DNA of 64,000 nucleotides from positions 142,322,859 to 142,386,858 of the forward strand of contig CM060171.1 in assembly GCA_030549775.1 (NCBI GenBank). Direction: 5' to 3'. Made by a program: the position numbers and the translations under genes. Below the pieces are notes generated by a model. It was not told the DNA's origin. It worked only from the letters and a program-made list of their open reading frames with translations, and did not search any database. Below, piece after piece: positions 6,248 through 64,000 of the stretch (its first letter is position 1; each line of letters starts with the position of its first letter). The stretch comes from Tamarix chinensis. Taxonomy: Eukaryota; Streptophyta; Magnoliopsida; Caryophyllales; Tamaricaceae.

Positions 6248-6250
6248 ATT

Positions 6251-6262
6251 TGGTATCAGAGC
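6251..6262 (+). promoter_or_regulatory. primer binding site of the gypsy element (tRNA-Met)
   Basis: TGGTATCAGAGC, three bases after the LTR, is an exact complement of the plant initiator tRNA-Met 3' terminus. Confidence 0.92.
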
Positions 6263-6278
6263 AGTTCGATGGGAAACA

Positions 6279-7229
6279 ATGGCACAGAAGAAGGTGGATG
6301 CTCTGGAGGAGAAATTAGCGGTGGTACAGGAAGAATGGCAAAAAGAGATTGAATCGATGCGTGATGATACGAAAAGGATTCCGATTCTAGAGAAAACAAT
6401 GAGTGAGGTGCTCAGCAAGTTGGATCAAATGATGGGTGTTTCGTCATCCCCTGCACCAAGGGAGCTTAGAACTGATGAATTTATGGGGATGGCGCCACTT
6501 GCTCAACCGGAGTTTCGTGCAAATACAAAGTCCGAAGGCAGGCAATCGGAAAATAGATCGACAAGACAACTAGAGCTCCCCATCTTCAATGGAGTTGACC
6601 CAGATGGGTGGCTATTTCGAGCAAAGCGATACTTTAATTGGAACCAAATGAGCGAAGAAGAGAGACTAGAAACTGTAGCGGTGGCTATAGAGGGGTAGGC
6701 ATTGGCCTGGTTCCAATATATGGAAGAAGGGAGGAAGTTTGCATCCTAGAGTGGGTTTAAGGAGGCCTTTCTCCTTTGATTCCGACCCAGTCATGAAGGG
6801 AGCCTCTGCGAGAAATTTCTTGCGTTCCGGCAGACGAACACTGTAGAGGAATTTTTGGAGAATTTTGAGCTCTTAGCAGCGCCACTGCAAGGGTGAATTT
6901 CGGAAGAAGTGCTCGAAGGCACGTTCCTCAACGGCCTGAAACCAGCCATCTGTGGCAAAGTGAGGATGATGAGACCTTGTGGACTGTCAGAGATCATAGT
7001 GGCATCGCGAATGTTCGAGGATAAGAACAGAGTTGTCCAAGCCAGCCGGGGAGGATGGGGTGGGTCTAGGCCCAAAACAGACCATTTGGCTCAAGGCCCA
7101 CCGAGCCCAAAAGGGGCAAATTCTGGATCGACTTTTGCGGTTCCCCTGAGAACACAATTCACAGCAGCAAAATCAGGGGCACCACCGACGACTGCAATTG
7201 GCCACGTGGGGGAGCCGGTGAGCATCTGA
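6279..7229 (+). pseudogene. gypsy gag with in-frame stops
   Basis: The frame opens at ATG 6279 (MAQKKVDALEEKL, coiled-coil-like leader) and stays in one phase to 7229. Premature stops occur at 6696 (TAG), near 6747 (TAG), near 6777 (TGA) and near 6893 (TGA), and a TGA at 7227 separates gag from the protease part. Recognisable core: LPIFNGVDPDGWLFRAKRYF, ALAWFQYMEEGRKF, LCEKFLAF, VEEFLENFELLAAPLQG and EGTFLNGLKPAI. The tail is Pro/Gly/Ser-rich and lacks a clear CCHC knuckle. Gag would form the virus-like particle. The single phase suggests decay by point mutation after an intact start. Confidence 0.85.
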
Positions 7230-7250
7230 CGAACACCAGGATACCAAAAG

Positions 7251-7928
7251 TTGACCGACGCTGAGCTTCTACGCTGCCGAGAGCTGGTGGTAGATGACTC
7301 GCAGGAACCTGACGAAGAGGAAGAAGAGCTGGAAGCACAAGCGGAAGGAGCGATAGGAGGCGTAGAAGGGCGGGTTGAGTTATCCCTTAATTCAATTGTG
7401 AGTTTCACAACTCCCAGAACGATGAAGCTGCGGGGAAAGGTTCAAGGGGAATCAGTGGTGGTGTTGGTAAATTGTGGTGCTACTCACAATTTTGTAGCCT
7501 GGGAATTAGTTCACTGACTAAAGCTGCCACTATCATCGACGGCATCTTATGGAGTCTTGATGGGCACCGGAAGTTCAACCCAAACGGAAGGCATTTGTCG
7601 GAGAATTTCACTTACCCTTCCGGAAATTGAGGTAATTGAGGACTTCCTTCCACTGAACTTAGGAAGTGCAGACATGATTCTTGGTATGCAGTGGCTCGAG
7701 AAGTTGAGAACGATGCAAATTAATTGGAAATTACTGTTGATGACATTCCATGTGGGTAAAACTCAAATGACTTTGAGAGGGGAAGCTGACATATGTAAAA
7801 CTCAGGTGTCATTGAAGTCCTTAGTGCGAACTATGCACAAGGAAGGAAGTGGGCTGCTATTGGAATGTTGTTCTTTACACAAATGGAGGAGTTACCCACT
7901 CATGCTGAGATACCCCAACCAATTTTAA
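7251..7928 (+). pseudogene. gypsy aspartic protease domain, catalytic Asp replaced
   Basis: In the same phase as gag, an acidic linker (EPDEEEEELEAQ) leads into the protease. The active-site signature reads VNCGATHNF, with Asn where the DSGA/DTGA family has its catalytic Asp, so it should be inactive. A stop at 7515 and a frameshift near 7870 add further breaks. The LNLGSADMILGMQWLEKLRT segment (near 7655-7710) is the conserved downstream motif. In an intact element this enzyme cleaves the gag-pol polyprotein. Confidence 0.82.
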
Positions 7929-9311
7929 GGGTCCTTGATCAGTTCCCAGAGGTGCTGAAGGCAGTGGACAGTTTGCCAACCCCCAGGGACTTTGATCACC
8001 ATATCCCATTACTGCCCGGGACTATTCCAGTCAATGTACGACCCTACCGTTATCCGCAGATACAAAAGGATGAGATAAAAAGGTTGGTGGGAGAAATGCT
8101 AGCCGCGGGATTAATCAGGCCCAGTCACAATCCCTTCTCAAGCCCTATCTTACTAGTCAAGAAAAAAGATGATAGTTGGAAATTTTGTGTAGACTACAGG
8201 GCCCTCAACAAGGTGACAATTCCGGATAAGTTTCCCATTCCAGTCATTGATAAGCTATTGGATGAGTTGAATGGGGCAACCATATTCACTAAGCTCGATT
8301 TGAAATCTAGATACCACCAAATCCGGGTTCACCAAGAGGATATTCCAAAAACTGCATTCCGTACACACGAGGGGCACTATGAGTTCCTGGTAATGCCATT
8401 CAGGTTAATGAATGCTCCGGCTACTTTTCAAGGCTTGATGAAAGAGGTATTCCGACCCTACCTCCGTAGATTTGTACTGGTATTTTTTAACGATATCTTG
8501 GTATATAGCAGAAACATGGAAGATCATATTAGGCACTTGAAGGAAGTATTTAAGATGCTGAGTGAGAATTCACTGACTATTAATATGAAGAAGTGCATAT
8601 TTGCACAACTAGAACTGGAATATTTGGGCCATATTATCTCGGCCAAAGGTGTAGCCACAAACCCGGCTAAGTTGAAATGCATGAATGAATGGCCAGTACC
8701 CAAAACCCTGCGGAAATTAAGAGGATTATCGAGGCTAACTGGGTACTATCGCAAGTTTGTGCAACATTATGGGCAATTGGCAGCACCTCTCACAACCCGG
8801 CTAAAAAAAGATTGTTTCGGGTGGAATGAGGAAGCTCAAAGGGCGTTTGATCGACTCAAGGAAGCCATGCTTGGGGTGCCAATTCTGCGGTTACCTGATT
8901 TCAAATTTCCTTTTGTAATAGAAATAGATGCATCCTGCGTAGGAATAGGAGCAGTATTAATGCAAGGGAGATGTCCTATTGCTTTTTTCAGCCAAGCCTT
9001 GGGACAGCGAGCACAATTGAAATCAGTGTACGAACAGGAATTGATGGAAATAGTGTTGGTCGTGCAGCGGTGGCGACAACTATCTAATGGGGCGGCATTT
9101 TACGATTAGAATAGATCGGAAAAGCTTAAAACTTATGCTAAAACGGCGAGTTTTGTCGGAGGAACACCTTAAATGGCTCTCGAAACTCTGGAGTTTTAAT
9201 TTCAGTATTGAATATAAGACCGGTGAGGAGAATAGAGCGGCCAATGCTCTTTCTCGATTGGAGGAATTCGTGACTCTTTCCGCAATTTCAGTAGCATGGT
9301 TAGACAATTAG
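7865..9311 (+). pseudogene. gypsy reverse transcriptase and RNase H, active-site mutated
   Basis: One open frame of 414 codons (7865-9109) covers the [58 protein letters not shown] and EFLVMPFRLMNAPATFQ. The catalytic motif reads FFNDILVYS instead of FFDDILVYS, losing the first metal-binding Asp. The RNase H part follows (IEIDASCVGIGAVL, QELMEIVLVVQRWR). A frameshift near 9080-9100 moves the remainder (HFTIRIDRKSLKLML...ALSRLEEF) to another phase, ending at 9311. The enzyme would copy element RNA into DNA in the cytoplasmic particle; this copy cannot. Confidence 0.9.
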
Positions 9312-9449
9312 AGCGACCTTCAATCCGAAATTGATAATGATTCCAAGCTGGGAGCGATAAAGAAGAAGCTACAGCTAGGAACAGAAATGGCGGAAGGCTA
9401 CCATCTTAGGAATGGCAATCTTTTTTTTCGGAACAGCTGGTCTTACCCG

Positions 9450-10060
9450 CAAATTCACCGCTGATACCACGCCTCCTAGCTGAATTCCATGGCAGTGGAA
9501 TAGGAGGGCATTCCGGGGTGTTGAAGACTTACCAAAGGCTATCCAAGGAGATGTATTGGGCTAGAATGCGCAAAGATGTCTAGAACTTTGTGGCATCATG
9601 TGGTACTTGTCAACAGCACAAATATTCCACCCTCAGCCCTACAGGTTTACTTCAACCCCTGCCCATACCACAATGGGTCTGGGAAGATATATCCCTAGAC
9701 TTCATCGAGGGGTTGCCAACCACAGATGGGTTCAATTGTGTCCTGGTGGTTGTGGATCGTCTTACCAAGTATGCTCATTTTATTCCACTGAGACACCCAT
9801 TTACTGGTCGATCAGTTGCAGCTGTCTTTGTGAAGAAGATTATACGTTTACATTGGATTCCTAACTCAATTGTATCCGATCATGAAAAAGTTTTCATGAG
9901 TAATTTCTGGAAAGAGTTGTTCAAGACTTGGGGAACTACTCTTCGTTTCAGCACGACCTATCACCCGCAGACGAACGGACAGACAGAGATAGTCAATCGG
10001 AGTTTAGAGACACAACTGCGCTGTTTTGCAAGTGACAAGCCCAAACAGTGGGTGAAATAG
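9450..10060 (+). pseudogene. gypsy integrase, zinc-binding and catalytic core
   Basis: A degenerate HHCC zinc-binding region starts near 9480 (EFHGSGIGGHSG) and reaches CGTCQQHK after a stop at 9581. The 9590-10060 frame holds the DDE core: Asp in [10 protein letters not shown], Asp in IVSDHEKVF and Glu in NGQTEIVN, all three present. An in-frame TAG at 10058 cuts it from the C-terminal domain, which continues in the same phase. Integrase would insert the cDNA and create the 5-bp duplication. Confidence 0.88.
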
Positions 10061-10807
10061 ATACCTTGGGCTGCATTTTGCTATAACACATCCTTCCATA
10101 CGGCCACCCGCACCACTCCCTTTACTGCCCTCTATGGACGAGACCCTCCCACACTACTACGGTACACAACCGAAGGTTTCCCAGTGGCCGAGGTTGATTT
10201 TGAGTTGAGAAACAGGGATGCTGTCCTAGACGAATTGAAGCAGCACTTGTTACGAGCACGGGACAGAATGAAATTACAAGCTGACCAAAGGAGGAGAGAT
10301 TTGGAGATTGACATAGGTAGCTGGACTTATGTCAAGCTCAAGCCCTACCACCGCTCTCTCGCTCGCCGCTTGAATGAGAAGCTCTCTCTGAGGTATTTTG
10401 GACCATATCAAGTGGAGGATAAGGTGGGGCCGGTGGCCTATCGTCTCAAGCTTCCGGAATCTGTTCCCATCCACCCTGTATTCCATGTATCAATGTTGAA
10501 GCCAGTCATAGGGGCAGGGCATCAGGGGCAGCCTTTTACATCCGTCCTCACTGCGAATTTAGAGTGGAAGGTTGAATCGGAAGCACTGCTGGATGTGAAG
10601 TATAATACCAAGGGAAGACTGGAAGTATTGATCAAATGGAAGAACCTGCCAGATTTTGAGGCCTCCAGGGAAGACTTTGAACTCATGGATGGACAATTTC
10701 CTGAATTCCACCTAGAGGACAAGGTGAAATTCCGAAAGGAGGGTAATGATAGACCCTTAATTCGATACACCTATGTGAGGAAGGGCAAAAGAGGGACTAT
10801 GGAATAA
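10061..10807 (+). pseudogene. gypsy integrase C-terminus with chromodomain, running into the 3' LTR
   Basis: The same phase as the integrase core continues past the stop at 10058 through the GPY/F-like region (LRYFGPYQVEDKVGPVAYRL) to a chromodomain-type end (LLDVKYNTKGRLEVLIKWKNLP...FELMDGQFPEFHLEDKV). The frame then reads about 20 codons into the 3' LTR and stops at 10807. A C-terminal chromodomain marks the chromovirus group, where it is thought to guide insertion toward marked chromatin. Coding overlap with the LTR is common in compact Reina-type elements. Confidence 0.83.
10733..10746 (+). promoter_or_regulatory. polypurine tract of the gypsy element
   Basis: A purine-rich run (CGAAAGGAGGGTAA) sits directly before the 3' LTR start TGATAG, the expected plus-strand primer position. 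Confidence 0.75.
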
Positions 10808-11212
10808 GAAGTGTGTTGATTAGCTATCTGCTGAGGTGTCCAGTATGTTGAGTCTTATTTTGCTGTTTTATTTTATTTTTACTGATAGGGCGTTGGGGAA
10901 GGGTCTGTTAGCTAGTGGATGAGTCACCTTATTCTATTATTCGGTTAAATCTAGTCGGTGATGTCAGGGGGGAGGGAAAGAAGCTGTTAGCTCGAGTATT
11001 AAGAGGAGAGGAGAGAGAGGGGGAAAGGCAGAAATTAAGTTGGTTGTGGGAGGTGTCAGGACCTCAAATCCCTAGCTGTAACTTTTCTTTCTCTTCGTAT
11101 CAATAGCTCATACTTCCTTTCTCGCCTAAATTCATTGCGTTAAATCTAGCTGTAATTCTGTTTCAACTCTCTTGTCATTGTTGGTGTTGATCCTAAGGGC
11201 AGGTTCTTATCA
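10747..11212 (+). repeat. 3' LTR of the Reina-like gypsy element
   Basis: 466 bp, the same length and ends as the 5' LTR, followed by the target duplication CATCG at 11213-11217. The first 61 bases also encode the end of the polyprotein. Confidence 0.95.
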
Positions 11213-17029: not shown

Positions 17030-17277
17030 TGTAACACCTTAAAATTTTTGGTTTAAAATTTTTTGCTTAATTTATAGATTTTGTAGAAGTGAAAACCAAA
17101 ACACATGTGTTACCACCGCTATTAATGTGAGTCCAGTTTTTGTACCATTCCCACTCTAAGGGTAATGCAAAACAATCAACCGAGTCACAAAATAGAGAAA
17201 CAACATAGATAATAATAACATAATAGGATAATGGTGTGGAAATCAACTCCCAAATATGCAACAAAAAGGGGAACAAG

Positions 17278-17697
17278 ACACAAGAGCCTAACATATCCAA
17301 GACACAAAAGAAACCAAAGGCACCAGCGAATAACTACTACTGTAACTCTCAACCCATAGTATAATTACTCATGTCTAGACATGTCAACATAGAAGTCATC
17401 ATCATCATCCTTTGGTGCTTGTAATAAGTCACCAACATAGTGTAGTATTAGTATGTTGACGTACTGAGTAAATAAGAGCTCCCAAAGGCACAAGAACCCA
17501 ACATATACAAGACACAAAAGGACCCAAAGGTACTACCAGATAACTCCTACTCTAACTCTCAACCTATAACGTAATCACTCATGTCTAGACATATCAACAT
17601 AAAATTCGTCATCATCATCTTTTGGCGTTTGTAATAAGTCACCAACATAGTGTAGTATCAGTAAGTCAGTGTACTTAGTAAATAAGGGCTCCTTTAT
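17278..17697. repeat. 210-bp tandem duplication in the LTR
   Basis: Two head-to-tail copies (17278-17487 and 17488-17697) share words at exact 210-base spacing, for example GACACAAAAG at 17301 and 17511, and AGTAAATAAG at 17468 and 17678. Several substitutions separate them. Confidence 0.85.
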
Positions 17698-21535: not shown

Positions 21536-22062
21536 TGTAACACTCCCCAAAATTTGCTACCAAAAATTTTGTTTAATGAAAAGGATTAACGGAAGCGAAA
21601 TAACAAAACTGTGAATTCTGGGGATATTACCACCACACTTAATACCAGACCGGTTCACTCCTACCATTCCAGAACCAAGTGCTAAGGCTAAAGAGGATTA
21701 TCATCAAACACAAGTCAATACTTAAAATGAGAATTCATAAAAGAACTTAATCGTTCACCATATAGAAATTAGAATAAGGGTAAAAGAGTTACGATCCAAG
21801 TAGTAAGTAGTTAAATTTCCCAAAGAACAAAAAGTATCGTATAATAGAACAGAATTAAAATAAAATGATACAAGGTAAAATGAAATGAAAAAGAGAATCT
21901 GTTCAGGTCACTCTCGGTCCCCAGGCCAAGTCCAAGCTCAACTCTCAGCCTTGGTCGATGCCTCGTAAGTGTCGTAGGCATCGAAGATAGCATCTTCTAC
22001 CTACACTAACTCAGGTGGGCCCTCTGCTCGTGGGAATGAGCAACACCCATGAAATTGATAGT

Positions 22063-22079
22063 CAGTACGCTATGTACTG
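22063..22079. promoter_or_regulatory. conserved LTR hairpin CAGTAC-GCTAT-GTACTG
   Basis: Perfect 6-bp stem with a 5-base loop, followed by AGT. Related hairpins occur at the same relative place in the other giant LTRs (52407-52423, 58615-58630). Function unknown. Confidence 0.6.
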
Positions 22080-22264
22080 AGTCAGGTAACCATATAGCTA
22101 AGGTCAAACACATAAAGCATATAACACAAGCATGGTTATATAAAAAACATACAACAATACAGATAATGAAGGCCGGATTATAGTCCAGATAAACTTATTC
22201 TTTAGATCGATGGTTAACATACTCATTTCACATATGCTCTTTATCAATCCATGCGAGTGCGGGA

Positions 22265-22620
22265 ATCCCACTATTATAGCTAGTGGATCGGAATACATAC
22301 AGGGCAGAATGCTCCCCTGACCACTATTATTGCTGGTGGAACGGTCTCTAGGGTAGAATGCTCCTGGCCACTATTATTTACAGGTGGACCGGTCTGGCCC
22401 CGACTCACATGGTGTTTCACTGTAATTACTTATTATTTTTTCCATGTCTTATCATCATTATTTTTGGTTTGTTGAGCATAGGATCCCTCACTATTATAGC
22501 CGGTAGACCGAAAAACATATAGGTAAAAATGCTTCTGGCCACTATTATTTGCCGGTGGACCGGTCTCCAGGGCATCTCTACTCCTGACCACTATTATTCA
22601 CCAGTGGACCGGTCTGGGGC
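22265..22620. repeat. minisatellite of CCACTATTAT...GGTGGACCGG units, 3+3
   Basis: Six units near 22268, 22321, 22368, 22487, 22539 and 22591. Each pairs CCAC with GTGG around TATTATTTGCCG and is followed by ACCGG. A spacer starting near 22395 (cccgactcacatggtg) divides them three and three, exactly as at 58833-59215. Confidence 0.85.
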
Positions 22621-49494: not shown

Positions 49495-50540
49495 CCCCAA
49501 CCCTTTTCTTTTTCCTTTTCTTTTCTTTCTTTCTTCTCCTCCTCCCACCAACCTCAAGTTGCAACTTTTGATTTAGTTGTAACTTTCACTTGCAACTTGC
49601 ACCACCCACCTACACGACCACACATCACCTTTCTACACCCTCATCCATCACTCATCACTTTATCTCCTTTATTCTTTTTCTTCTTCTCCTTCTGCTCCCT
49701 TATCCCTACCCACTGTACAATCATCGCACACTCCACTATCCCCCGACCATTTCTTCTTCTTCTCACGCAACACCTTCATCAACCATCACCATCCTCACCC
49801 TGCAGCTACTACCCTACCCCAACCATCCCCTACAACCATCACCATCATCATCACCTTGCAGCTGCATAGTCACCATCATCACTATCGCACGCCAGCACCC
49901 CCTTATTCTTTTTCTTCTTCCCCGACTCCCACCACACGCACACATGTATATATGTATGTATGTTTACCATACTCTCCTTCTTTCTCTTTGTTTGGCCTCC
50001 AATCTATCCTTTCTGCATTAAAAATCAATTGTCCGAGCTCCTCGACCTTCTTCTCTTCTTCCTTCTCCTTCCTACTTCTTCTTCCTCCTTCTTTCTCTAT
50101 TTTTGGCATTCGCACCACCATGCACCACCTTGGCCACCACTCGCCGCCCTTTAGCCAATGGACTGACCACCAAGGTCGCCCCAACCTTCCCCCTCACCGT
50201 CGTCGCCCATCATCGCCGCCTGCCGCTTCTTTTCCCTTCTTCTTCCCCCATTCGTTGTAGTGTTGCAGAGTGCACGGCCTGTGCACCACCTGCTGCATAG
50301 TCGTGCAACACTTAAAATCTCCTACTGCATAGCCGTACAACTTTTGCACCGTCTGGTCGTGCACCATAATTCCTCTCGGCCTGGTGTTGCACAGCCGTGC
50401 AACTTTTGCACCTCTTGACCGTGCAACTTCTTTTTTTGACCGTGCACCTCTATTTTCACCCCCAAACCTTGTCCAAACACCATCAAAATTTAACCATAGC
50501 TTCACCACACACTCCTCTACACATCCACACATCTCAAGCT
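49495..50540. repeat. pyrimidine-rich GC block of the giant LTR (plus orientation)
   Basis: CCTTTTCTTT and CTTCTTCTCC runs change to CACC/CCATCACC-rich DNA, with GTGCACC/TTGCACAGCCGTGCAAC words at 50250-50450. Inverted equivalent of 24470-25560 and 61700-63005. Open frames here are low-complexity (His/Pro/Ser/Thr) on several frames and not credible. Confidence 0.65.
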
Positions 50541-51834
50541 CCCTTTTTTACTACGATTATATCTATTTTTACCCTCTTTACATTGATTTCTCCTTCGATT
50601 TAACTCTTTGAGCCTAATCATGAATTTTATTATTTTGATAGGTGGTAATCCAGTAGCTTCGAAGGAGGAAGTCTAGGATTTGCATGCTTAGAGCCTGATG
50701 TCCTAGTTGGTAAGGATACTATTTGATATTTAGGATTTTTGGTGTTAATTGCTTGAATGACTATATGTGTTTTTCATGATATTATTGATATATGACGTAA
50801 TATGTGTTGATCATGATATTATGTGATGATATGGATATTACATTGAAAGGGAGTAGGAATGGGTGAGAGGTACCATTACATTATGATTTTGGATGATAAT
50901 GTCATATTTGTGGAAATACATTTTATGGTATGAAATATGGGTTGAATGATGATAATGTCATATTTGTGGAAATACATCTTATGGTATGAAATATGGGTTG
51001 AATGATGAAAATATCATATTTGTGGAAATATATCTTATGGTATAAAATATGGGTTGAATGAGTTTTGATAAATGGATTTAAGGATTCTCAAGAAGTATGA
51101 TGATAAATGGGGGACTTGGAAAAATAACATGCATGGAAGGTATAGTATTTCATAAAATAAGGTTTTTATTTGTGCTTAAAGGGTAACTTGGTCATTACGG
51201 GATAATAAGGAAATTTTGGTAATTTATGTGTTAGGAAGATTAAAAAATGATAATAATAGTATGAGAAATTCTTGGAAGTATTATTGTTATTTGGGGTCCT
51301 TAAATGATTTAATGGATAATTTGGGGCAAATCATCCTATGATGATAATATCAATATCTCATGTATAAGATCTAGAGGTTATACAGATTTCTAAACATGTT
51401 GTTAATATTTGACCTTATGAGGTTATCTATTGGAATTGGTAATCATGAAAATTTCATGGGAAGTGTTATAACAATTTTATGGAATTTGGATCTTGGATAT
51501 TTCTGTGATTAACATATCAGGATGAGATTATTAAAGTAGACTTATGAGAATTAGGTTGTGCATTTTGGGTATGATACTAATGATGGGATTTGGGAGATGA
51601 TATAATATAAGTCGTGTAGAACAATCAACATGGGAGAATGAATACTGAAGGAAGTGTAATTAGGGTTTGAAAGGACTTAAGGACTTGGACCTATGCTATA
51701 TGTGTATTTGTTTTGACTTTATCCTATGCTTAAGAATCAATCTTGAATAAGATACTAATCACTTAAAGTGAAAGAGCACGTGAGTAGGGCGAAGGTGATC
51801 TATTTTTCTATATCTATTATATGTATCTCATTCC

Positions 51835-52250
51835 ACAGGGGAGAATAGTGGCTTAGGAGCATTTTGTCCGGAGAAGATTTTTTAATTTCTATTCTGCCAG
51901 ATAGAATAGTGGCTCGGGTGTGTTGTCCTCGAGAGTTTCAGACCGTTCCACCGATTTAAGAAAAGTGGGGTCCCTACTCATCGTGAAATGAAAACATATC
52001 ATCATAACCTATGGAAAAGATACTAATGATTTACAGTGGAATAATACGTGAGTTAGGACTAATGTGATATATTTTCTATATGTATATGTATTCCCGTTCC
52101 ACTGGGTAGAATAGTGTCTCGGGCGCATTTTACCTTAAGGAGATGTTTTTAATCTCCGTTCCACCAGAAAGAATAGTGGCTCGGGTGTGTTGTCCCCAAG
52201 AGCTTCAGACCATTCCATCGGTTTAAGAATAGTAGGGTTCCTACACTCAA
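51835..52250. repeat. minisatellite, six CCACTATTCT-type units in inverted orientation
   Basis: Units with GGTGGAAC...GAATAGTGG, complementary to the units at 22265 and 58833, in two groups of three divided at about 51970-52090. The 3+3 order is conserved. Confidence 0.75.
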
Positions 52251-52406
52251 CGTATATAAAAGAATGAAAATAGATTATACTTAATAAAGGAATCTAGATC
52301 ATATTCTTTCTTATGAGATGTCTCTTTTATGTGGTTATTCCCTTATTATCTAATGTGAAAGCATGTGTTATTTGTATCCCTATTTCAATAGTATTGTTTC
52401 CTTACT

Positions 52407-52423
52407 CAGTATGTAGCGTACTG
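52407..52423. promoter_or_regulatory. conserved LTR hairpin CAGTAT-GTAGC-GTACTG
   Basis: Six-base stem (one G-T type pair) with a 5-base loop, preceded by ACT, as the inverted counterpart of the hairpins at 22063 and 58615. Confidence 0.55.
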
Positions 52424-52623
52424 ACCACCTGTTTTATGGGTGCTGCTCGTTCCCACGAGCAAACTTGCCCTATTTTGCATGTGATTGATGATTATTATCT
52501 AGATGTGCTTGCCTTGGGTGAGCGCTAAACAAATTGGTAAAGGGTATAGTTATCTAGATATCTCTATCTCTTTCTTTGGACTCCTAGTCCTTTATTTTCA
52601 CTATCTATTCCCTTCTCTCTTTT

Positions 52624-53340
52624 TCATATCATGTATCGCGGTGGAATCAAGTGCTTCCCACACCTAATTCCTAGGTCTGAGTAATCCGAACCTCTAAATT
52701 CGAACACTAGCAAAGTAGTGTACCTTTGATCATCATGACCACAACCAAGATCGGAGTAACCCATCAATAGAATAGCCAACAACATGTACTCAGTACAAAC
52801 CGATACTGTATGCACCAAGTACCTTAAAAAAGAAGCACAGCTAACTAAGGTTTCTTTTAGAGACTCACCACACACATGCTCACTCACCACACGAGCAATA
52901 CAACATTTGGTACTAATCACATTGTACATCAAGCATTTCACACCTGCAGAGTATGAACCAATGACTAAGCAAGCCACCACAACCACATTTGATTTGGGCA
53001 CATCTAAAGTCTTTAGCTTGTTCTCCTCAAGTATTTCTTTTATTGTAACAAGTAAAACATAAACACACAACAAAAGAATAACTAGTGAAACATCACATAC
53101 CAATGTTTGAGTCCACCAAAGAGACCACATATCTTCAGCAACACTAATAGAATATCACAAGGCATAATCAATACCCAAAATAACCTCTAAGTTTAACACT
53201 AGCTCATGCACACCAATACTACTCATAGTATACAATGTATAACCAGATTTGAATAAATCAATACCCACTTGCTCCACCCTACTACCCAGATTCCTCCTCA
53301 TTAGAACCATAACATCCATCTTATCTAAAGCACCCGACAA
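52624..53340 (-). pseudogene. copia late-pol remnants (RT end / RNase H side)
   Basis: An open stretch at 53130-52624 contains AGVKCLMYNVISTKCCIARVVSEHV and LRYLVHTVSVC, then MGYSDLGCGHDDQRYTTLLVFEFRG. These are worn versions of the AVGSLMYAMVCTRPDIAHAVSVVS, ILRYLxGTS and GYSDSDYAGDxDxRRSTTGYVF motifs around the RNase H start. The 53340-53155 piece could not be placed. Confidence 0.6.
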
Positions 53341-53346
53341 ACTCTC

Positions 53347-54750
53347 CTACCCCACCTTCTTATCAAGAAGGAATTCAGACTCACAAAAGGTAACTGATCT
53401 AGATGTAATCGGGTCACAGCACAATGACCCTCCAGTCGTGCCAATGAAATTACCGTGTATTAGTCGCATCAAATCAAGGTTGGCAACATCTAAGTTAGAC
53501 ACTCTCAATGTTAATCCAATTGCACCTTCAATTGTTGTAACAATAAACTCATACAATTTCTAGACCCACTTACCAACAATTGCCCCCACAACCCCTTTAG
53601 CAACCTTCAATGCACCATTCTCAATGATACACCTATAACCTTTGCTATCGAAGGAACACAGTAAAATCAAGTTTTTGGTCATGTCAGGAACATGAAAAAC
53701 ACCAGACAATGTCCTGACTACACCACCATGCATCCTAACATTCACGGTTCTAATCCCAACAACTTTACATGAAGCATCATTTTCCAAGATAACAACTACA
53801 CCTCGACCATTATCATATGTCTGGAACCAACTTTTGTTTGGACATACATGTTAGGAGCACCCAGAATTCAGTATCCACCTATCAACCAATTTGGTATATC
53901 CATCTATGGCAGTTAGTACATCACCATCACCATCGCCCCCAGTTATGGCAGTGTCACACTCATTAGGTACACCATTAGTAGTATGTATTGATTTTCTATT
54001 AGGATAGTATCTTCTGATATGGCCTTTAATGCGACAACCATGACATGTCACATTCGTTTGTCAACTTTTTGACTTAGATCTAGACATTTTCTTATCACTA
54101 GACCCCCACTCATGTATCATCCCCTGGCTATCAATCCCTCACTATATGAGTCCCAAAAAGTACTATTATCAATTAACTAACTATCAATCAACTTTCATTG
54201 TAGCATGGTGGATTTTAAATCCTCAAGGAATAACTCATCATTACCATAGAAAATAGTCTCATAAAATGCTTAAAGCTAGAGAGCAAAGAACATAACAATA
54301 TAATAGTCAAATCTTCATCATTTAATTTAACATCTATATTATGTAAAACCATAACAATAGAGTTAAATTCATCCAAATGACTTTTCAAAGATTAACCATC
54401 ATCTAATTTTAGGTCATGAAGCTGACTCTTCAACAGTAGGTGATTTGTTACTAATTTTTTCATGTACAAGAACTCAAGCTTCAACCACAAAACAACCATT
54501 GTTGGTTATTTTTTCACTTCCCACAATATCTCGTTAGACAAGTACAGTTGTATGGTAGAGAAGGCTTCATATCTAATTCTTTAAATCTATCATCTGTCAT
54601 CGACTCTGGCTTGTTCGAATGACTGGATAAAGATTTTTCCAATCCACTCTGAATAAGAATTGCCTGCATCTTAAATTTTCATAATTCAAAATTGAAGGAT
54701 CGATTAAATTTATCAATATTAAATCTTATACCCATCCCCATAATTAGATC
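53347..54750 (-). pseudogene. copia gag, zinc knuckle, protease and pre-integrase remnants
   Basis: The gag N-terminus (a FNFELWKFKMQAIL-like stretch, near 54700-54650) is badly broken. CHGCRIKGHIRRYYPNRK at 54051-53995 is a CCHC knuckle with its last Cys changed to Tyr. DRWILNSGCS near 53860 is the protease signature with DSG reading NSG. NDASCKVVGIRTVNVRMHGGVVRTLSGVFHVPDMTKNLILL (53787-53660) is the GAG-pre-integrase lead. Non-functional. Confidence 0.75.
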
Positions 54751-54782
54751 TCTTCAATAACACATATCTAATACCAAATTAT

Positions 54783-55268
54783 TGCATAATTACTATGGAT
54801 TTAGAGAGATCCAAACCAAATTGGAATTAACAAGATTATGCACAAATAAGGGTTCAATCACAAAATAAAACAAATGAGGAAAATATAGAGATATTTATTC
54901 ATATTCTTATGAAATTACAAGATGATTAAATTAATAAATCAATTACACAAATCTATAAGTCTCTTTGAATGGAGAATTCTATGAAGAAGAGGAAGAAGTT
55001 GGGATGCACGACTCTCGACAACTAGGGTTTCAACACGTCTCCTTTTATAGAAGAAAAAATCCAACCGGATAAAACAACACGATTCATAAATAAGGAAAAA
55101 ATACGGCCCATGTTTAGGAAATATAGGAACCTCGTGTTTATTTCCTTACTCTCAACCTTTTCCCAAAACACATCAAATATTCCACAGAGAAACACGGTTC
55201 GTGTTTATTAACACGGGACCTCCGTGTTTCTCACATAAACCTCCATACTATACAAAAATTCTCTAACA
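54783..55268 (-). repeat. 5' LTR of the minus-strand copia element
   Basis: Minus-strand reading TGTTAGAGAATTTTTG...ATTATGCA, about 486 bp, followed three bases later by TTTGGTATTAGA, a tRNA-Met-type primer site. The stretch TTCTATAAAAGGAGACG near 55050-55034 is a good TATA box for the LTR promoter. A GTGTTTNTNAACACG palindrome is near 55190-55225. Confidence 0.7.
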
Positions 55269-55299
55269 CCTATACGAACCAACACAATATTATACTATG

Positions 55300-57465
55300 C
55301 TCAAAGACCCAATCAAATCTCACATCCTCATATATTAAAGTGGGGATAATTCGTGATTACTTTCATACCACATTCATTTTGAATGTGTTAAATCATTAAT
55401 CTTAACCATATGCATTCTTATCAAACTTCATAAAGGGAAATTAACTCCACATGATTAAATGATGTGGTAGTCATAGTTTAATTTTTTAATCTCCATGATA
55501 TTGTAGTATTTCCAAATGTAAACACATGACCGGATTGAGATTTTACCTTGTGTGGATCTAATAAGTACCCTACATTTGTATATCCGATGAGAGTGGCATT
55601 TGTATATCTTTGGTAGAATATTCTAAGATCATGTGTATCTTTGAGGTAGCAAAAAAAAATGTTTAAATCCCTTTTAAAGCCTTCTTGTTGGTTCTGAACT
55701 ACGTATTGACAATAAGTTAATAGAAGAGGCAATGTTAGGGAATGTATTGTTGACCAAATACATTAATGCCTCAATTGCACTCAAATATAGTACTTCAGGG
55801 CAAATGATTTCTTCATTAATCTCACGAGGGAAAAATGTTTAATTCTTTATATTTAGCAGGCGGATCACCATTAGAGAGTTGAGTGGGTGTACTTTATCTA
55901 TATGAAATCTCTTTAGAATCTTATCAGTGTATGTTGATTTGTGAATAAATATGCCATTATTTATGTGCTCAATCTATAACTAAGAAAAAACTTTATTTTT
56001 TCAAGATCTTTCATTAAATATCTTACAATACTTTCAAGTTTGGCATATAGTACAATTATATTAAGGTCATCAACATAAATTGGAAAAATGGTAAATCCAT
56101 AATGGGATCACTTGATGAAAACACATGGGATAATGAGATCATTTTTAAATCCTCTTTTAAGAAGATATTCGATAAGATTATTATACCACATACCTCCAGA
56201 TTGTTTTAATCAATAATACTTTTCTTAAATTTATGGAAAACATTTCTCAAGAATTAAATTTATGAGATTCAAATAGTTGAAGTCCCTGAAAACTTTCATA
56301 TATATGTTTGTATCAAGTGATCCATATAGATATACAGCCACAACATACATGAGGTGCATCTCTATCCTTTGAAAGATAGCTAAACTAATTGAGAATCTCA
56401 ATGTTGTTGCATGAACAATTGGGGATTATGTTTTCTCATAATCTTTTCTATGCATCTAAGAAAAAACTTGGGCTAAAAGTCTTTCCTTGTATTTTACAAT
56501 TTTATTTTTCTCATTTTTTTTAGGTATAAACACCCATTTTTATCCTACTGGCTTTGTGTCTCTTGGTGTAAGGTCCAAGTTTCCAAATTCATCACGTTTT
56601 TCTAGTGATGTTAGTTCTAGTTAGATTGGCTCATTCCATTTTAGCCAATTTTTTCTTTATCGACATTCATTTATCATCCTTGGCTCAAGATCATTTTCAT
56701 TTGATATCATTTCACATGCAATTGAATATGTGAATACTTCATCTACTATGGTGTCATTTATATCAAAGTGTTCTGATGTGGAAACATAATTTATTAATAT
56801 TTCATGATTATCGATATTTCTGTTATCATGCACCTTTTTTGAGGTGTTTTCCTCATCATTTGAAGTATGATTGTCTTTTTCTTAAATGGAAGGAACCATT
56901 TTGATATCATTTAACAAATTGTCTTGCTCTCTCATCCTTCTTAGTCTCTAGTATTTTGAACTAAATGGTATATCATGCTTTCAATGTATTATACTTTCAT
57001 TTGTATGACTTGTATCTATAATTTAAGTTGGAACTATAATTTTTTCAAGAACATTCACCACTGGAACATGTGACTTTGTCACTTTATTCATGCTAGTGAA
57101 TGATTAAGGTAATTGATTAGCTACATTTTGTAAATGTATGATCTTTTGCAACTTTTGTTCACACAAGTTTGAGTGTGGATCAAGATAAGATGAATTTGTT
57201 GCATTCTATGTAATATCCTTTTTACGTAGGTCCACTTTATTCTTATCTCCCTCTAAGGTTGGGAATATTGTTTCATTAAAGTCAAAATCAGTGAACCATG
57301 TTCTGAACATATCACCGGTCTTAGGTTCAAAAAACTTAATAATTGATGGGAGTTCAAAGCAAATACGAATTCTTGGCCTTACTTTGTGGACCCATTTTTG
57401 TTCTTTGTGGTGGATTAATAAGAACATACACACCACAAACAAATATTCTTGGATGTGATGCCTTT
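55300..57465 (-). pseudogene. second copia element: connection, reverse transcriptase and RNase H remnants
   Basis: Minus-strand order: post-integrase region (HHKEQKWVHKVRPR..ICFELPSIIKFFEPKTGDMF...FNETIFPTLEGD, 57475-57206), then RT with YKERLLAQVFS (near 56490), AVYLYGSLDTNIYMKVF (near 56320), a preserved YVDDLNII-type box (near 56083-56053), IEHINNGIFIHKSTYTDKILKRF and EVLYLSAIEALMYLVNNTFPNIA. RNase H follows: LKDTHDLRIFYQ...LIGYTNVGYLLDPHKVKSQSGHVFTFGNTTISW (55732-55478). Many stops. The Cassandra complex separates this from its integrase at 63595-64000. Confidence 0.82.
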
Positions 57466-57470
57466 GGTTT

Positions 57471-57773
57471 TGCAATATCCTAAATTGAGCAGAGTGTTAT
57501 AAGGATTGATTTGGCTACTTATATCAACATGTATACCATCTTTTTGGTAATTTTGTCCTAAGAACTCCACAGTTAAGCGTGCTAAGTGTGGAGTAATTTT
57601 AGGATGGGTGACCTTTCTAGAAAGTTTTGTAAATTTTATGAAAAATTCTTAGGAAATGTGTGAGTGGAGAAAAAGCACACTGAAAGGACTCGTATTGATC
57701 TATGAGGCCAATCGATCAATCCGAAAGTGATCTAGGGTATCCCCACATGGTCGTATAAACTTGGGGTGTTACA
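57471..57773 (+). repeat. Cassandra LTR1 with 5S rRNA-like sequence
   Basis: 303 bp, TGCAATATCC...GGGGTGTTACA. The 5S-like part (57559-57624) has AGAACTCCACAGTTAAGCGT, covering the pol III A box, and AGGATGGGTGACC, the C box, as in plant 5S rRNA genes. The segment between them has drifted from the 5S sequence. Confidence 0.92.
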
Positions 57774-57920
57774 AATCATATTAGAGCAAAACCGCGATCG
57801 TGAGTTGAACTTGGATGTGCCAGTCAGCCAACTATCGGGATGATTCTTAGGATAACCTATATTGAGACAGTTAGTGGTTGAGGCATAATGAGGACGTTGC
57901 ATTATTTGAGTGGGGATAAA
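57774..57920 (+). other. Cassandra internal domain (primer site and polypurine tract)
   Basis: Only 147 bp. TCATATTAGAGC at 57776-57787 is a worn tRNA-Met primer site (consensus TGGTATCAGAGC). GAGTGGGGATAAA (57908-57920) is the polypurine tract. No frame. Confidence 0.88.
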
Positions 57921-58078
57921 TGTAATACCCTATATTGAGTGGAGTGTTATAAGGATTGATCTGGCTACTTATATCAACATAGTATACCTTCCTTTTGATG
58001 ATTCCGTCCTAAGAACTCCACAGTTAAGTGTGCTGGTCGAGAAGTAATTTTTAGGATGGGCGACCCTTCTGGAAAGTG
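57921..58078 (+). repeat. Cassandra LTR2, truncated after the 5S-like part
   Basis: TGTAATACCCTATATTGAGT start. The 5S-like part (58010-58077) includes AGAACTCCACAGTTAAGTGT and AGGATGGGCGACC. At about 58078 it switches to GCAACGAGGACGTTGTG, an internal-domain sequence seen near 57890 (GAGGACGTTGCA), so roughly 145 bp of the LTR end are missing. Confidence 0.85.
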
Positions 58079-58113
58079 CAACGAGGACGTTGTGTTCTTT
58101 GAGTGGGGGTGAA

Positions 58114-58161
58114 TGTAATGCCCCAAAATGAACGGAATGTTATAAGGATTGATTTGGCTAC
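58114..58161 (+). repeat. Cassandra LTR3, first 48 bp
   Basis: TGTAATGCCCCAAAATGAAC...GATTTGGCTAC, interrupted by the solo LTR after the GCTAC target. It resumes at 63333. Confidence 0.9.
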
Positions 58162-58614
58162 TGTAACACCCCCAAAATTCACTACTGAAAAATTTCGTTT
58201 TATTAAAAGATAATAGCAGAAGCAGATAAAAAAAACGTGAACTTTGGGAGTATTACCGCCACACTTAGTACCAGACCGGTTCACTCATACCGTTCCAGTA
58301 CCAAGTGCTAAGGCTAAGAAAATGAAATACAGATCGAAAGACATTCAACATGCATAAAGCAGAGTAAATTGCAAGCTTCAACATATTTAAATCAGAGTAG
58401 CGCATTGAATCGTTTTCAGGAATAAAATCCACCAAGGGTGGTTACTTTAACAACGTTAACATTTAAAACCGAGAAATTAAATGAGAAAGAGAAAAAGCCA
58501 TGATACCGGAAAATTCCTTACTCTCCTTCCCGTAACCCACTTGAGTAGCACCTGAAAATACCTGCAAGGGCACTGCCCATTGAATAGGTAGGGGCCCTAT
58601 AAAGGGAATCCCTT

Positions 58615-58630
58615 CAGTACTACGGTACTG
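58615..58630. promoter_or_regulatory. conserved LTR hairpin CAGTAC-TACG-GTACTG
   Basis: Perfect 6-bp stem with a 4-base loop followed by AGTAAC; same relative place as in the 21536 unit. Confidence 0.6.
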
Positions 58631-58832
58631 AGTAACCCTTTAATACCACACTTAAAGATAGGCCCGCATACGACACAAAATGCAAGCCACACACATATAA
58701 ATAATGAGAGATGCATACATAACAATGACAAACATAATACTTTATAAGTCACGATCGATACTTTGGGCCTTAAGCCATTATTCTGTCATTAATCCATCAA
58801 TATCATATTTTGTATCCATGTGAGTACGAGAA

Positions 58833-59215
58833 CCCCACTATTATAGCCGGTGGACCGGAAGTCAACATACAGGGCAAAACGCCTCTGACCACTATTATTG
58901 CTGGTGGACCGGAAGATAAACACACAGGGCAGAACGCACCTGACCACTATTATTTGCCGGTGGACCGGTCTGGCCCTGACTCACATGGTGTTCCACTATA
59001 AGTGATTAGTATTTTCCATAATCTTATTCACGTACATAACTGATTTTATTGAGCTCGGGACCCCCACTATTATTGCCGGTGGACCGGAATATATATGTAA
59101 TCATCATCCAGGGCACAACGCTCCTGGCCACTATTATATCCGGTGGACCGGTACTCATAATCACACACCAGGGCAACACGCTCCTGGACCACTATTATAA
59201 CCGGTGGACCGGTAC
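58833..59215. repeat. minisatellite of CCACTATTAT...GGTGGACCGG units, 3+3
   Basis: Units start near 58834, 58890, 58944, 59065, 59130 and 59190. Between them are runs like CAGGGCA-AACGC-CTCCTG. A non-repeat spacer at about 58972-59060 with GACTCACATGGTGTTCCACT splits them three and three. Confidence 0.88.
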
Positions 59216-59899
59216 GCAATATCGTAAATCACTGGGCCCGGCTCATTAATATTCCACTTTCAATTATCATATCTTTCCTTTCTTTAATCAGCACATCAAT
59301 CATATTTATTTGCCTTCTCGATGTCGATTAACCGGACACACAAAGTACACGGTCGTACCGGTGCATATCAGCTACTCAGTACCCTTTAACCGTGAACCCA
59401 AGGACGCAAAGGTACCCTGGTCGTACTGGTGCATAAAGTTAACTCAGTACCCTACCGACAAGGACACCTAATCCATAAGTATGCATACCCCCTAACTAGG
59501 TCCGTAGAGCTATGAAGAGTAAGATATAGGGCCTGGCTGGGGCACAAAGGCACACCAGCAAATACCAGAATAATCGTGGACTAAACACGTCCTTAGGGGT
59601 AGCGACCCCTAAGGAGTCACCATTCCCGATCTCGAGGTCTTTCACTTTAAGTAATAGTGTCTTAATTAAGGTGATCACAGAAAGCACGATGATCCGATAC
59701 TTATTCACTTTCAATCGTTTCGATATCATTAATCGTTTCTTATTCAGAGGATTATCCAGGATGTCACAGAGAAACCATCAAGGCCATACTAATCATTAGA
59801 TACTCTTACTTGGCTAATCAGCATTATTTAATCATATTAATATTCCACAATATCAAAGGCATGGCAGGTACAAACCACTCATTTGCCCTTTACTTATAT

Positions 59900-61095
59900 A
59901 ATTGTTAAGTATCCATTCCTTACCTGATAATTACCACATTACCCTTAAGGTTGCTATTTTACAAATTACCCTTGTCCACTTTAGATTACCAAATTGTCTC
60001 CTACACTTTTTAGACCCCGTTCCCCCTATATAATTACTACACTTGTCATATTTCCCTTTTGGTTGGTTATGTTATCAGATCGCCCTTCTCCTTTGTTATA
60101 ATTACTAAATTGCCCTTGAGTTAGATAAATTACTAAATTACCCTCCTTCATTATCATGATTTACTATTTTTGCCCCTTTAGTTGGTTAAAAAAATTATCA
60201 CTTTACCCTTTTATCGGCTAAATTACCAAATTGCCCCTTTAGTTGAACAAATTACCAAATTGCCCTTCTCCTTTATCATAATTACCATTTTACCCCTCTC
60301 AATTATTTTAATTGCCATTTACCTTTTTTAATTACCACAAATCCCAAATTACTCTTCTTCATAATTACCAATATTAATTTACCCTTTTTCATAATCAAAA
60401 TTACTATATTACCCTTCTCCATTATTAAAATTACCATAATGCCCTTTAGTTGGTTAATTTACTACATTACCCTTCTATAGTATCATACTTATCCAATTGC
60501 CCTTCTACAATCATAATTTAATTGCTAAATTATCTTTTGTCGTTATCATAATTACCAAGTTACCCCTTACTCCAAGTTTACCATAATATCCTTTCTTTTA
60601 CAAAATTACCATTTTCCCCTTACATCAATTTTACCATAATATCCTTTTATTTATGAAAATTACCACCATACATCTTTTACTTTACAAATTACTATTTTAC
60701 CCTTTTACATCCAAGATTACCATCTTTATCTTTCATTACATAATTACCATTTTGCCATTCTTTTCCAATTTACCATATTACCCCTTTACTTATAAATTTC
60801 CACTTTGCCATTCACTTATAGAATTTACCATATTACCCTTTACTTATGAAATTACGATTTTGCCCCTCTACCTCCAAAATTATCATAATGCCCTCCTTCA
60901 TCCAAAATTACTATTTTACCCCTACTTCTAAAATTACCATTTTACCTTCTTTCTCACAACTTATAATTTTATCCTTTACTTGTAAATTATCATTTGGCCA
61001 TTTAATTATAAAATTACCATATTATTCTTTTGTCTCAAAAATTACCGAAATACCCTTCTCCACTTATAGAATTTCCACTCAAACCCTTTATTCCC
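59900..61095. repeat. 1.2-kb array of ATTACCAWWTTGCCCTTT-type units
   Basis: Dozens of worn units of about 25-36 bp, each with AATTACCA or TTACCATTTT followed by T(A/G)CCCTT. It is strongly strand-asymmetric (pyrimidine-rich on plus), non-coding, and much longer here than in the sister units. Confidence 0.8.
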
Positions 61096-61099
61096 CATT

Positions 61100-61695
61100 T
61101 TTATGAATTTTTCTAACACTACATAAAATAATGATATTAATACTTCATTTTATTATCTAAGTCCACCAACTTGTCATTTTTCAACATAATACTCATTAGC
61201 AACTACACACATTGATTTATATACCTCATAAGCATAATTACTAAAATACCCTTAAATAATAACATCATTCATGCATTAACAACATGGTACATCATAAACA
61301 AGTATTTAACATTTCTATCCATATTCCAACTCCTTCTTTATTTAACCTGCCTACATATGGCATAAAAGTTATCATGCTATTTCTTTTTAACAAACAATAT
61401 AAGAAACCATAAACATATCATGCTAAGCATACAAAAACATGCATAAAATCATACTAAACCCTAAATGTGCTAGCATGCGTTTTTCCATATATTTAAGGGA
61501 GGATTAACGGTTACCTTAATCCCGCAAAATATCAAATCTTATCAAGCATATTTAGCAACTCAACACCTAAAAATAATATCCATCATACTTATGTTAGAAA
61601 TAAAGACCAAAGCATAAAACTTTATAAATTTTAATTAATAAAACACTTAACATAAAATACCATTTTATCTTAAAAATTATCCAAACTATTTTTAA
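61100..61695. other. AT-rich part of the solo LTR, no gene
   Basis: AT-rich, with TACATGTCC/CATAAGCATA-like words also found at 23570-23740 of the sister unit. Confidence 0.55.
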
Positions 61696-61699
61696 AATG

Positions 61700-63005
61700 T
61701 AGGGGAGCTCACGCTGTATGGGAAGCGTGAGTTTCATGCAGAAAAGAGAAGGGAAAAAGGCTCAAAGAGGGGTGAAGGAAGCAAGATTCATCATTTTCGG
61801 GTTAGGGTCTTTAGGCTAGAAAAGAAGGCGGTTGGGGGAGGTTCTAGGCAAGTGAATGGTGCAGAAGTGAAGAGGGGGTGTAGGTGGAGGCTAAGGGTGG
61901 TTTCACGGCGACTTAGGGCGGCGGAGACGGCGGCGGGGGGCGGCGAAGTTGGCTGCCAAGCAGGGTCGAGGGCGAGGGGCTGAGAAGGGAGGAAAAGGAG
62001 AGAGGGAAAAATGGAGGGGTTAAAGGCCTGTTTTTGGGCTAACTAATGAATGGCGGTTGTAGAGGGGGTTGCAGGGTCTTGAATGGTGGCTGGTGAGGGT
62101 GGCGGAATAGGCGGCAGGAAGGCGGCGATCGGCGGCGTTACAGGTGGGATATCGGGAAGGGTGAAAACCGGGAGAAAAGGAAGAGGGGAGGAAGAGGGAG
62201 TTGCGGGGTGGCTCGGGTGGTGTTGGGGCGGTGCAGGGAGGTAGCATACGGTGGCAGAGGCGGCTTACGACGGCTCTGGGGGTCTAGTTAGGCGGTGTAC
62301 GCGGCGGAGGGTGGCGGTGGAGCAAAAATAGGGAAAAACGGGTGAGGAAGAAAATGAGAGTGAAGAAGAAGGGGAGAAAGGCTCGGGGGTAAAGGCGCGA
62401 GAGGATGGGCAGAAAATGGGTGAAGAGGAGAAGAAAAAGAAGAGGAGAAGAGAGGGGGGGCAGGGTGATCGACGCGGCAGCGTCTAGGGTGGCAGGGAGG
62501 GGAGACGAAGAGGGGGAAAAAAAAACAGAGTTGTGGGATGGTTTGCAGGGCTGGATGGGTTCGAAAATAGGAAGAAAATGACGGGAGAGAAGGAGGGCGG
62601 GAGGTGGTGGCAGCGATGGGTGCAGGCGGTGGCAGCCAGCGTCTCGGTGGTCGGGCATGGCAGGCGGTTATGGCGATGGCGACGAGTCGAGGAGCTGCTG
62701 GGTCGAGAGTCATGACGTTGGGAGAAGAAGAAATAAGGGAGCAGGCCGGTCGGGGAAGGGAGAAAAGAAAAGGGGCTGGCCGGCGGTCTGGGGGAGGAAG
62801 GAGGGATGGGTCGGCCGTGCGGGGCTGGGGCGACGGGGCGTTGCGAGCGAGGGAGAGGGGGGGAGACGAGCGAAGGCCCAACGCACGGGGGAGAGGGGGA
62901 GAGCAGGCCGGGCGGGCGGCCCAAGGGGGAGAAAAAGGAAAAGAGAAGAAAAGAGAAAAGGAGAAAAAGGAGGAGGAAAAGAAAAAGAAAAAATGGAAAA
63001 ATAGG
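61700..63005. repeat. GC-rich purine-strand block of the solo LTR
   Basis: GGCGGCGG/GGAGG/GAGAGGG-rich, falling back to AT-rich at 63005. Open frames on both strands reflect bias (Pro/Ser/His-rich or Gly/Arg/Lys-rich); none carries a domain. Equivalent to 24470-25560 and the inverted 49495-50540. Confidence 0.7.
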
Positions 63006-63332
63006 GGAAATAAATTAAATAAATTTTATAAATCATAACATGTAATATTCTTGATAATTTATTTAATTTAATAATTTAATTTATTATAATCTAATATATT
63101 AGTTTAAAAAGGATAAAGTTGGTAAAATATTAGTTTTGGAAAATTATTTAAATAAAACAATATGATAAATAGAAAAATATTTATTTTTAATTTATTAAAT
63201 ACCCTTATCCAAAGTTACATACTCTAAAATCCATAAAATAATTAAAATAAATAATCTAAAAGCAATTCTATTCCAAATAAAAGTAATTTATTAAAATATA
63301 GGTTTTCGAAATTTTTGGGGTATTACAGCTAC

Positions 63333-63589
63333 TTACATGAACATGGTATACCACCTTTTTGGTGATTCCATCCGAAGAACTCCACAGTTAAGCATGCTAG
63401 CCATTGAGTAATTTTTAGGATGGGTGATCCTCTTGGAAAGTTTCGTAAATTTTATAAAAAATTATCAAGAAGTGCATAAGTGGAGAAAAGTACATTGAAA
63501 GGACTCATGTTGATCTGTGAGGCTAGTTAGTAAATCTAAAAGCGCTCTAGAGTATCCTCCACATGGTTTTATCGACTCGGGATATTATA
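63333..63589 (+). repeat. Cassandra LTR3, remaining part with 5S rRNA-like sequence
   Basis: The 5S-like part is at 63371-63440 (AGAACTCCACAGTTAAGCAT; AGGATGGGTGATCC, C box with one change). It ends GGGATATTATA, a worn GGGGTGTTACA, followed by the outer target duplication GGTTT. Confidence 0.9.
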
Positions 63590-63594
63590 GGTTT

Positions 63595-64000
63595 TTTACT
63601 AGATACCAATTGTAATGGGAAGTTTTATGATAAGTAGACGATCTTAATCAAATTAAAGTTGGCGCGTGTAATATTGTATGTCCCCAAGCCGATGATGGTA
63701 ATTTAAAACCCATCAACAATGGTAGAACAATCAATTGCAATCATTTAATTAAAATTTAGCAAGACCATTTTGTGTATGAATATGAGCCCCTAAGCGCTCC
63801 ACATCAATCCTAATTGACATACAATAATCATTAAATACTTGGGATGTAAATTCACCTATATTATCAAGACTTATTTTCTTTATTGTATAATATGGGCATA
63901 TAGCTCTTAATTGAATGATTTAAGCAAGAAGTCTAGCGAATTCCACATTTTTACTGGAAAATAGACTCACATGTGACTAACATGTTGATGCATCGATTAA
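63595..64000 (-). pseudogene. second copia element: integrase remnants
   Basis: Minus-strand reading from the window edge: VAFARLLAQIIQLRAICPYYTIKKISLDNIGEFTSQVFNDYCMSIRIDVERLGAHIHTQNGLAKF. This is copia integrase from the second catalytic Asp (normally RLDNAGEF, here SLDNIGEF) to the Glu region (HTQNGLAE, here LAKF), then YHHRLGDIQYYT. The catalytic Glu is Lys and stops follow. It continues at 57465 on the other side of the Cassandra complex. Confidence 0.8.

Follow-up and report, generated by a model that had tools for sequence, protein, structure and literature searches.

Sequence reading, repeat search and pairwise alignments of a 64,000-nt stretch of Tamarix chinensis contig CM060171.1 (the window) revealed a Cassandra-type terminal-repeat retrotransposon in miniature (TRIM) at positions 57471-63589, flanked on either side by a GGTTT target duplication and carrying three long terminal repeats (LTRs), the middle one cut short. 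A single site within a decayed Ty1/copia element most likely holds the whole array, and a nested element probably arrived later, because the empty-site joins at both the outer and the inner boundary fit this order. As to how the array arose, we give about even chances to a reading in which a Cassandra concatemer, built by a template jump during reverse transcription, integrated once and was later entered by a second retrotransposon that collapsed to a solo LTR.

The anatomy of the array can be read directly from the alignments, and it agreed to the base with an earlier note on this DNA, which had described a Cassandra element with three LTRs and a cut middle unit. From left to right, the parts are GGTTT, LTR1, internal region 1, the cut LTR2, the tail of internal region 2, the split LTR3, and GGTTT, with all of the Cassandra parts on the forward strand. 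LTR1 (57471-57773, delimited by alignment) is complete, with 303 bp and TG...CA ends, and is followed by internal region 1 (57774-57920; sequence and alignment), which is 147 bp long and purine-rich at its 3' end. LTR2 (57921-58077; alignment) keeps only the first 157 of approximately 303 bp and ends where its similarity to 5S ribosomal RNA (5S) ends. Internal region 2 keeps only the last 36 of approximately 147 bp (58078-58113), as determined by alignment to internal region 1. LTR3 was recovered by alignment as a 5' piece (58114-58161) and a 3' piece (63333-63589), which amount to 305 bp once joined and are separated by a nested element of 5166 bp (58162-63327, forward strand).

The outer duplication GGTTT lies at 57466-57470 and 63590-63594, and the inner duplication GCTAC at 58157-58161 and 63328-63332. 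All four copies were identified by sequence and alignment, the left outer copy also by the empty-site join. Both duplications adjoin TG...CA-type ends, the TA that closes LTR3 being read as a decayed CA, and the chance of two random 5-mers from the window being identical is 0.0017. When 57470 was joined to 63595, leaving GGTTT once, a minus-strand open frame of 48 codons ran across the join (NFPLQLVSSKKPKASHPRIFVCGVYVLINPPQRTKMGPQSKAKNSYLL) and matched the Pfam family SH3_retrovirus (E = 3.4e-07; score 30.5 bits, cut-off 27). The match covers residues 9-41, beginning two residues before the join, with the remainder on the 57470 side. A native stretch of the right flank gave a weak match to the rve integrase core (E = 0.083, below the cut-off, profile positions 57-95 of 102), and the order across the join, rve first and SH3-like sequence second, is the one expected of an integrase, in which the core precedes the SH3-like end. 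The residues FPLQLVSS ahead of the join presumably fit a copia integrase as well. The left flank (57300-57470, minus strand) was annotated as a relic of a Ty1/copia-type integrase SH3-like region, its SH3_retrovirus match standing above the cut-off. The right flank (63595-64000, minus strand) was annotated as decayed sequence from farther upstream in an integrase of that kind, with the weak rve match and an open frame into the left flank. Stops and frame changes occur in both flanks of the copia relic; a protein search with the joined stretch returned no candidate, and a Pfam search of a further copia piece returned no family. At the inner site, joining 58161 to 63333 produced an LTR3 that aligns to LTR1 and LTR2 with no gap at that point. 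The earlier note had placed exact GGTTT copies around the whole array and exact GCTAC copies around a 5.2-kb insert in LTR3, and the empty-site checks agree with both; its claim of a single outer duplication for the array likewise stands, with the same GGTTT on both sides and flanks that fit one copia site.

Cassandra identity was examined with box A and box C patterns of the 5S promoter type (18 nt apart) and the primer site TGGTATCAGAGC, all taken from PMC7215508. A box scan of both strands of the window, allowing at most two mismatches in total and a spacing of 16-20, gave three hits, one in each LTR and no others, and the same scan gave 0 hits in 20 Markov-simulated 64-kb sequences, for which a single strand was scanned. 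In LTR1, box A (57571-57582) and box C (57601-57613) carry no mismatches and lie 18 nt apart. In LTR2 (box A 58022-58033, box C 58053-58065) and LTR3 (box A 63386-63397, box C 63417-63429), box A is also without mismatches, box C carries one, and the spacing is 19 nt; all six boxes are on the forward strand, and they are indeed kept to different degrees, as previously noted. A decayed primer binding site, with 9 of 12 matches to the published one, begins two bases past LTR1 (57776-57787, forward strand). Local alignment to a plant 5S sequence gave scores of 71, 71 and 72 for LTR1, LTR2 and LTR3, whereas 500 shuffles of LTR1 reached 27 at most. With the Rfam 5S model, positions 50000-64000 yielded no match at E up to 1, and a threshold of 10 for 57471-58161 and 63328-63600 yielded none either, so the 5S identity rests on the boxes and the alignment. 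Together, the short internal region, the 5-bp target duplication, the boxes and the primer site support assignment of the element to the Cassandra TRIMs; transcription by RNA polymerase III (Pol III) would be expected of such an element. No further Cassandra copy was found inside the window, and a combined box C and primer-site pattern had 0 matches in viral_contigs and 0 in genome_contigs, neither of which is a plant collection.

Comparison of the LTRs revealed divergences of 14-20% that were about equal among pairs. Over the part common to all three, LTR1 and LTR2 differ at 22 of 155 positions, LTR1 and LTR3 at 27 of 155, and LTR2 and LTR3 at 29 of 157, while full-length LTR1 and LTR3 differ at 60 of 302 (Kimura two-parameter distance 0.24). 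The internal tails are similar to the LTRs in this respect, with 6 of 33 aligned bases differing. Private differences showed a star-like pattern, with 16 in LTR3, 11 in LTR2 and 10 in LTR1 (equal shares, p = 0.43; one three-way site excluded), and their classes were interspersed along the LTR. The ratio of LTR2-LTR3 to LTR1-LTR3 divergence (p23/p13) was 1.06 (bootstrap 95% 0.75-1.49), and that of LTR1-LTR2 to LTR1-LTR3 divergence (p12/p13) was 0.81 (0.53-1.23). LTR1 and LTR2 were nominally closest, without firm support, their distance being below that of LTR1 and LTR3 in 83% of bootstraps and below that of LTR2 and LTR3 in 89%. These values indicate that the LTR copies parted at about one time. 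Since the LTRs are about equally diverged, the array appears to have been born at or near insertion and not through recent expansion. A late expansion in place is not supported: the distance from LTR2 to LTR3 is no smaller than that from LTR1 to LTR3, and LTR2 is only nominally nearer to LTR1. The earlier note had allowed that the array either inserted as such or expanded in place afterwards; the divergence comparison is compatible with insertion as such or an early expansion and disfavours expansion long afterwards. At a plant substitution rate of 1.3e-8 per site per year, the age of the array would come out, very roughly, at around 9 million years.

The middle junction at 58077/58078 has neither an LTR terminus nor a duplication and is thus not an integration boundary. 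Measured against a full second unit, approximately 257 bp are gone, namely LTR nt 156-303 (LTR1 numbering) and internal nt 1-109, and no clear repeat bridges the two ends of the missing segment. The 5S alignment of LTR2 extends to the final base of that LTR fragment (5S nt 103); the alignment of LTR1 ends at 5S nt 103 too, and that of LTR3 six 5S bases further. A TTTT run begins at the breakpoint position in LTR1, but a Pol III terminator exactly at the breakpoint is doubtful because LTR3 has TTTCG there. Two further candidates for the junction region were rejected. Splicing of a read-through RNA fails because removal of a GT...AG segment here would not yield the observed GGAAAGTGCAACG. Antisense 5S in the internal tail was considered for a 12-base likeness, with a 2-base gap, to the reverse complement of the 5S 3' end; this lies within shuffle range, its score being reached by 25-52% of shuffles for the tail and 78% for internal region 1.

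Under the template-jump reading, minus-strand synthesis on one Cassandra RNA would have covered the 3' LTR and 36 nt of internal tail before the growing strand switched to a second Cassandra RNA. It would have landed on the 3' end of that RNA, where the LTR would be present only as its unique 3' and repeat parts (U3-R). Synthesis would have run on through the second RNA to the primer site, and the resulting concatemer, in which LTR2 lacked its last approximately 148 bp, would have integrated once in pol of the decayed Ty1/copia element with duplication of GGTTT. A long-LTR retrotransposon would later have entered LTR3, duplicating GCTAC, and collapsed to a solo LTR. The anatomy, the duplications with their empty-site joins, the near-equal LTR divergence and the 5S boxes are direct observations, whereas we infer the jump itself, its landing on an RNA 3' end and the solo-LTR collapse. 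Passages of PMC10886601, which cites Kalendar 2008, place the start of Cassandra RNA within the 5S sequence of the 5' LTR and its termination within that of the 3' LTR, and mention an 18-bp repeat at its two ends. If these published ends apply, LTR2 would represent U3-R lacking the unique 5' part (U5), as at the 3' end of genomic RNA. The nearness of the LTR2 end to the reported RNA end mildly favours a template jump over early unequal recombination with a deletion of approximately 257 bp, and the jump is also favoured because one event accounts for both the array and the truncation. Template jumping has already been proposed for Cassandra arrays in a section of PMC7215508.

A sharper form of this proposal, which we regard as tentative and rather unlikely, holds that LTR2 is a frozen 3' end of genomic RNA, that its last base (LTR nt 157) is the RNA end, and that the junction is an end-to-end jump onto that end. 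If this were true, the breakpoint would be common to truncated middle LTRs of Cassandra arrays across plants, and such breakpoints would offer a way of locating the RNA 3' end and of counting how many arrays were born by reverse transcription.

Several points weigh against this main reading. The junction carries no RNA-end signature, the correspondence between the breakpoint and the 5S border was spotted post hoc, and the 5S similarity of LTR3 continues past the breakpoint to LTR nt 162. The position assumed for the RNA 3' end follows a citing paper, and the window contains the junction only once. Joins placed one base wrong still match SH3_retrovirus (29 and 27.6 bits against 30.5), so the exact join is not fixed by Pfam alone, the match lying almost wholly on one side. 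Finally, early unequal recombination followed by a deletion predicts the identical duplication and divergences.

That last process is the strongest alternative, and we hold it to be a real possibility that falls somewhat short of even. A two-LTR Cassandra element at GGTTT would have undergone early unequal crossing-over between its LTRs to give LTR-internal-LTR-internal-LTR, and a later deletion of approximately 257 bp would have produced the present middle unit. Deletions are frequent in old elements, and the crossing-over would leave the same single outer duplication. Unequal crossing-over is, moreover, a published mechanism for Cassandra arrays (in a section of PMC7215508), and its direct product, an array of three LTRs and two internal regions (L3I2), is the commonest TRIM array in maize, with 63 of 93 in the data given in PMC4717578. 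This route requires two events, however, and the ends of the deletion have no obvious repeat in common. A late crossing-over also predicts that the left part of LTR2 should be near LTR3 and internal region 2 near internal region 1; the p23/p13 ratio and the differences between the tails reported above mean that any crossing-over must have been early. Both candidates named in the earlier note, a template switch and unequal LTR recombination (the latter if early), fit the single duplication and the divergences.

The same outer duplication would also be expected if a truncated concatemer had pre-existed at a source locus and its read-through RNA had been reverse transcribed and inserted as such, and multi-unit Cassandra transcripts are on record in a part of PMC7215508. 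We consider this improbable: the window holds no other Cassandra copy, and in such a history LTR1 and LTR3 would have been remade while LTR2 would be older and maybe more diverged, which it is not. Still less credit, very little indeed, goes to two separate Cassandra insertions, two elements fused by a deletion between them, or an assembly error. Misassembly of repeats is possible in general, but nothing observed speaks in favour of any of these readings, and the divergence of 14-20% among the three LTRs makes a chimera of near-identical repeats unlikely. Two insertions are opposed by the middle junction, with its lack of an LTR terminus or duplication, and by outer flanks that bear the same 5-mer and fit one copia site.

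The nested element begins TGTAACACCCCCAAAATT and finishes AATTTTTGGGGTATTACA, and its TG...CA ends and 5-bp duplication are as for a solo LTR. Its longest stop-to-stop frame (245 codons) is of low complexity, and a Pfam search of this frame at E up to 1 found nothing. Solo LTRs left by long-LTR retrotransposons of plants have TG...CA ends, a 5-bp duplication and a length of several kb. The nested element resembles them in being several kb long and in the lack of a protein family match in its longest frame, and on these sequence features it is probably a solo LTR of a long-LTR retrotransposon. A partial relative at 21536-22613 has the same TGTAACAC start, with TG at 21536, and 63% identity over 1132 aligned positions. 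The right end and duplication of this relative were not found, and a full-length copy with two such LTRs was not seen in the window, where the partial relative is the only one. A motif like CCACTATTATNGCCGGTGGACCGG occurs in five copies in the nested element (58821-59214) and in several decayed copies in the relative (22269-22613), and positions 59926-61087 of the nested element consist of approximately 1.1 kb of degenerate repeats of about 30 bp with the form AATTACCA...ATTACCCTT. A match to the miR172 family at 58151-58268 reached 32 bits (E = 0.0013) on one strand and 24.4 bits on the other, well below the gathering score of 70; it was rejected because it lies across the left end of the nested element, where the sequence seems to form an inverted repeat.

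Other repeats were also observed in the window. A complete-looking LTR retrotransposon at 5782-11212 has 466-bp LTRs (5782-6247 and 10747-11212) that are 95.5% alike, CATCG on both sides, and the primer site TGGTATCAGAGC after its first LTR; judged by LTR divergence, it is younger than the Cassandra array. Tandem duplications were seen at 17275-17692 (approximately 208 bp, 84% alike) and 51749-52244 (approximately 230 bp, 79% alike).

The locus is an old, truncated member of a well-known class of plant TRIM arrays. It is ordinary in kind, because plants commonly carry TRIM arrays of three LTRs within one 5-bp duplication, and taken alone it is an ordinary old repeat. In the sections concerned, PMC7215508 and PMC11899658 leave undecided whether such arrays are born in the reverse-transcription particle or by chromosomal recombination. 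On this question the array offers a concrete test of mechanism, since it combines a single duplication and an identifiable gene at the empty site with a middle LTR that breaks off close to the reported RNA end. No published description of a middle LTR cut at the 5S border was found in the passages of the papers cited here or in the literature listings examined.

Among known systems, the closest are the short Cassandra arrays of about three LTRs that Kalendar et al. 2020 (PMC7215508) report from many of the plant species examined, with both mechanisms proposed and incomplete units mentioned at array ends. The Tamarix array agrees with these in its boxes about 18 nt apart, the primer site TGGTATCAGAGC, a short non-coding internal region and about three LTRs. 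It differs in that the incomplete part lies in the middle of the array and in that its units are 14-20% diverged, whereas those described there are almost identical. Tandem TRIM arrays were found in 35 of 43 genomes according to the corresponding part of PMC4717578 (Gao et al. 2016), which includes a maize example with one 5-bp duplication. The present array has the three LTRs, two internal regions and one 5-bp target duplication of these L3I2 TRIMs, but its LTR2 and internal region 2 are truncated, and the maize example belongs to the SMART family, which is without 5S. In rice, the portion of PMC11899658 concerned describes TLI1 and TLI2, larger elements that, like the Tamarix array, have three LTRs inside one target duplication; its authors inferred a single insertion for TLI1 and left two mechanisms undecided. 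Unlike the element described here, the rice elements are larger and belong to other families, and their LTRs are more alike in TLI2 (99%) than in TLI1 (85-89%).

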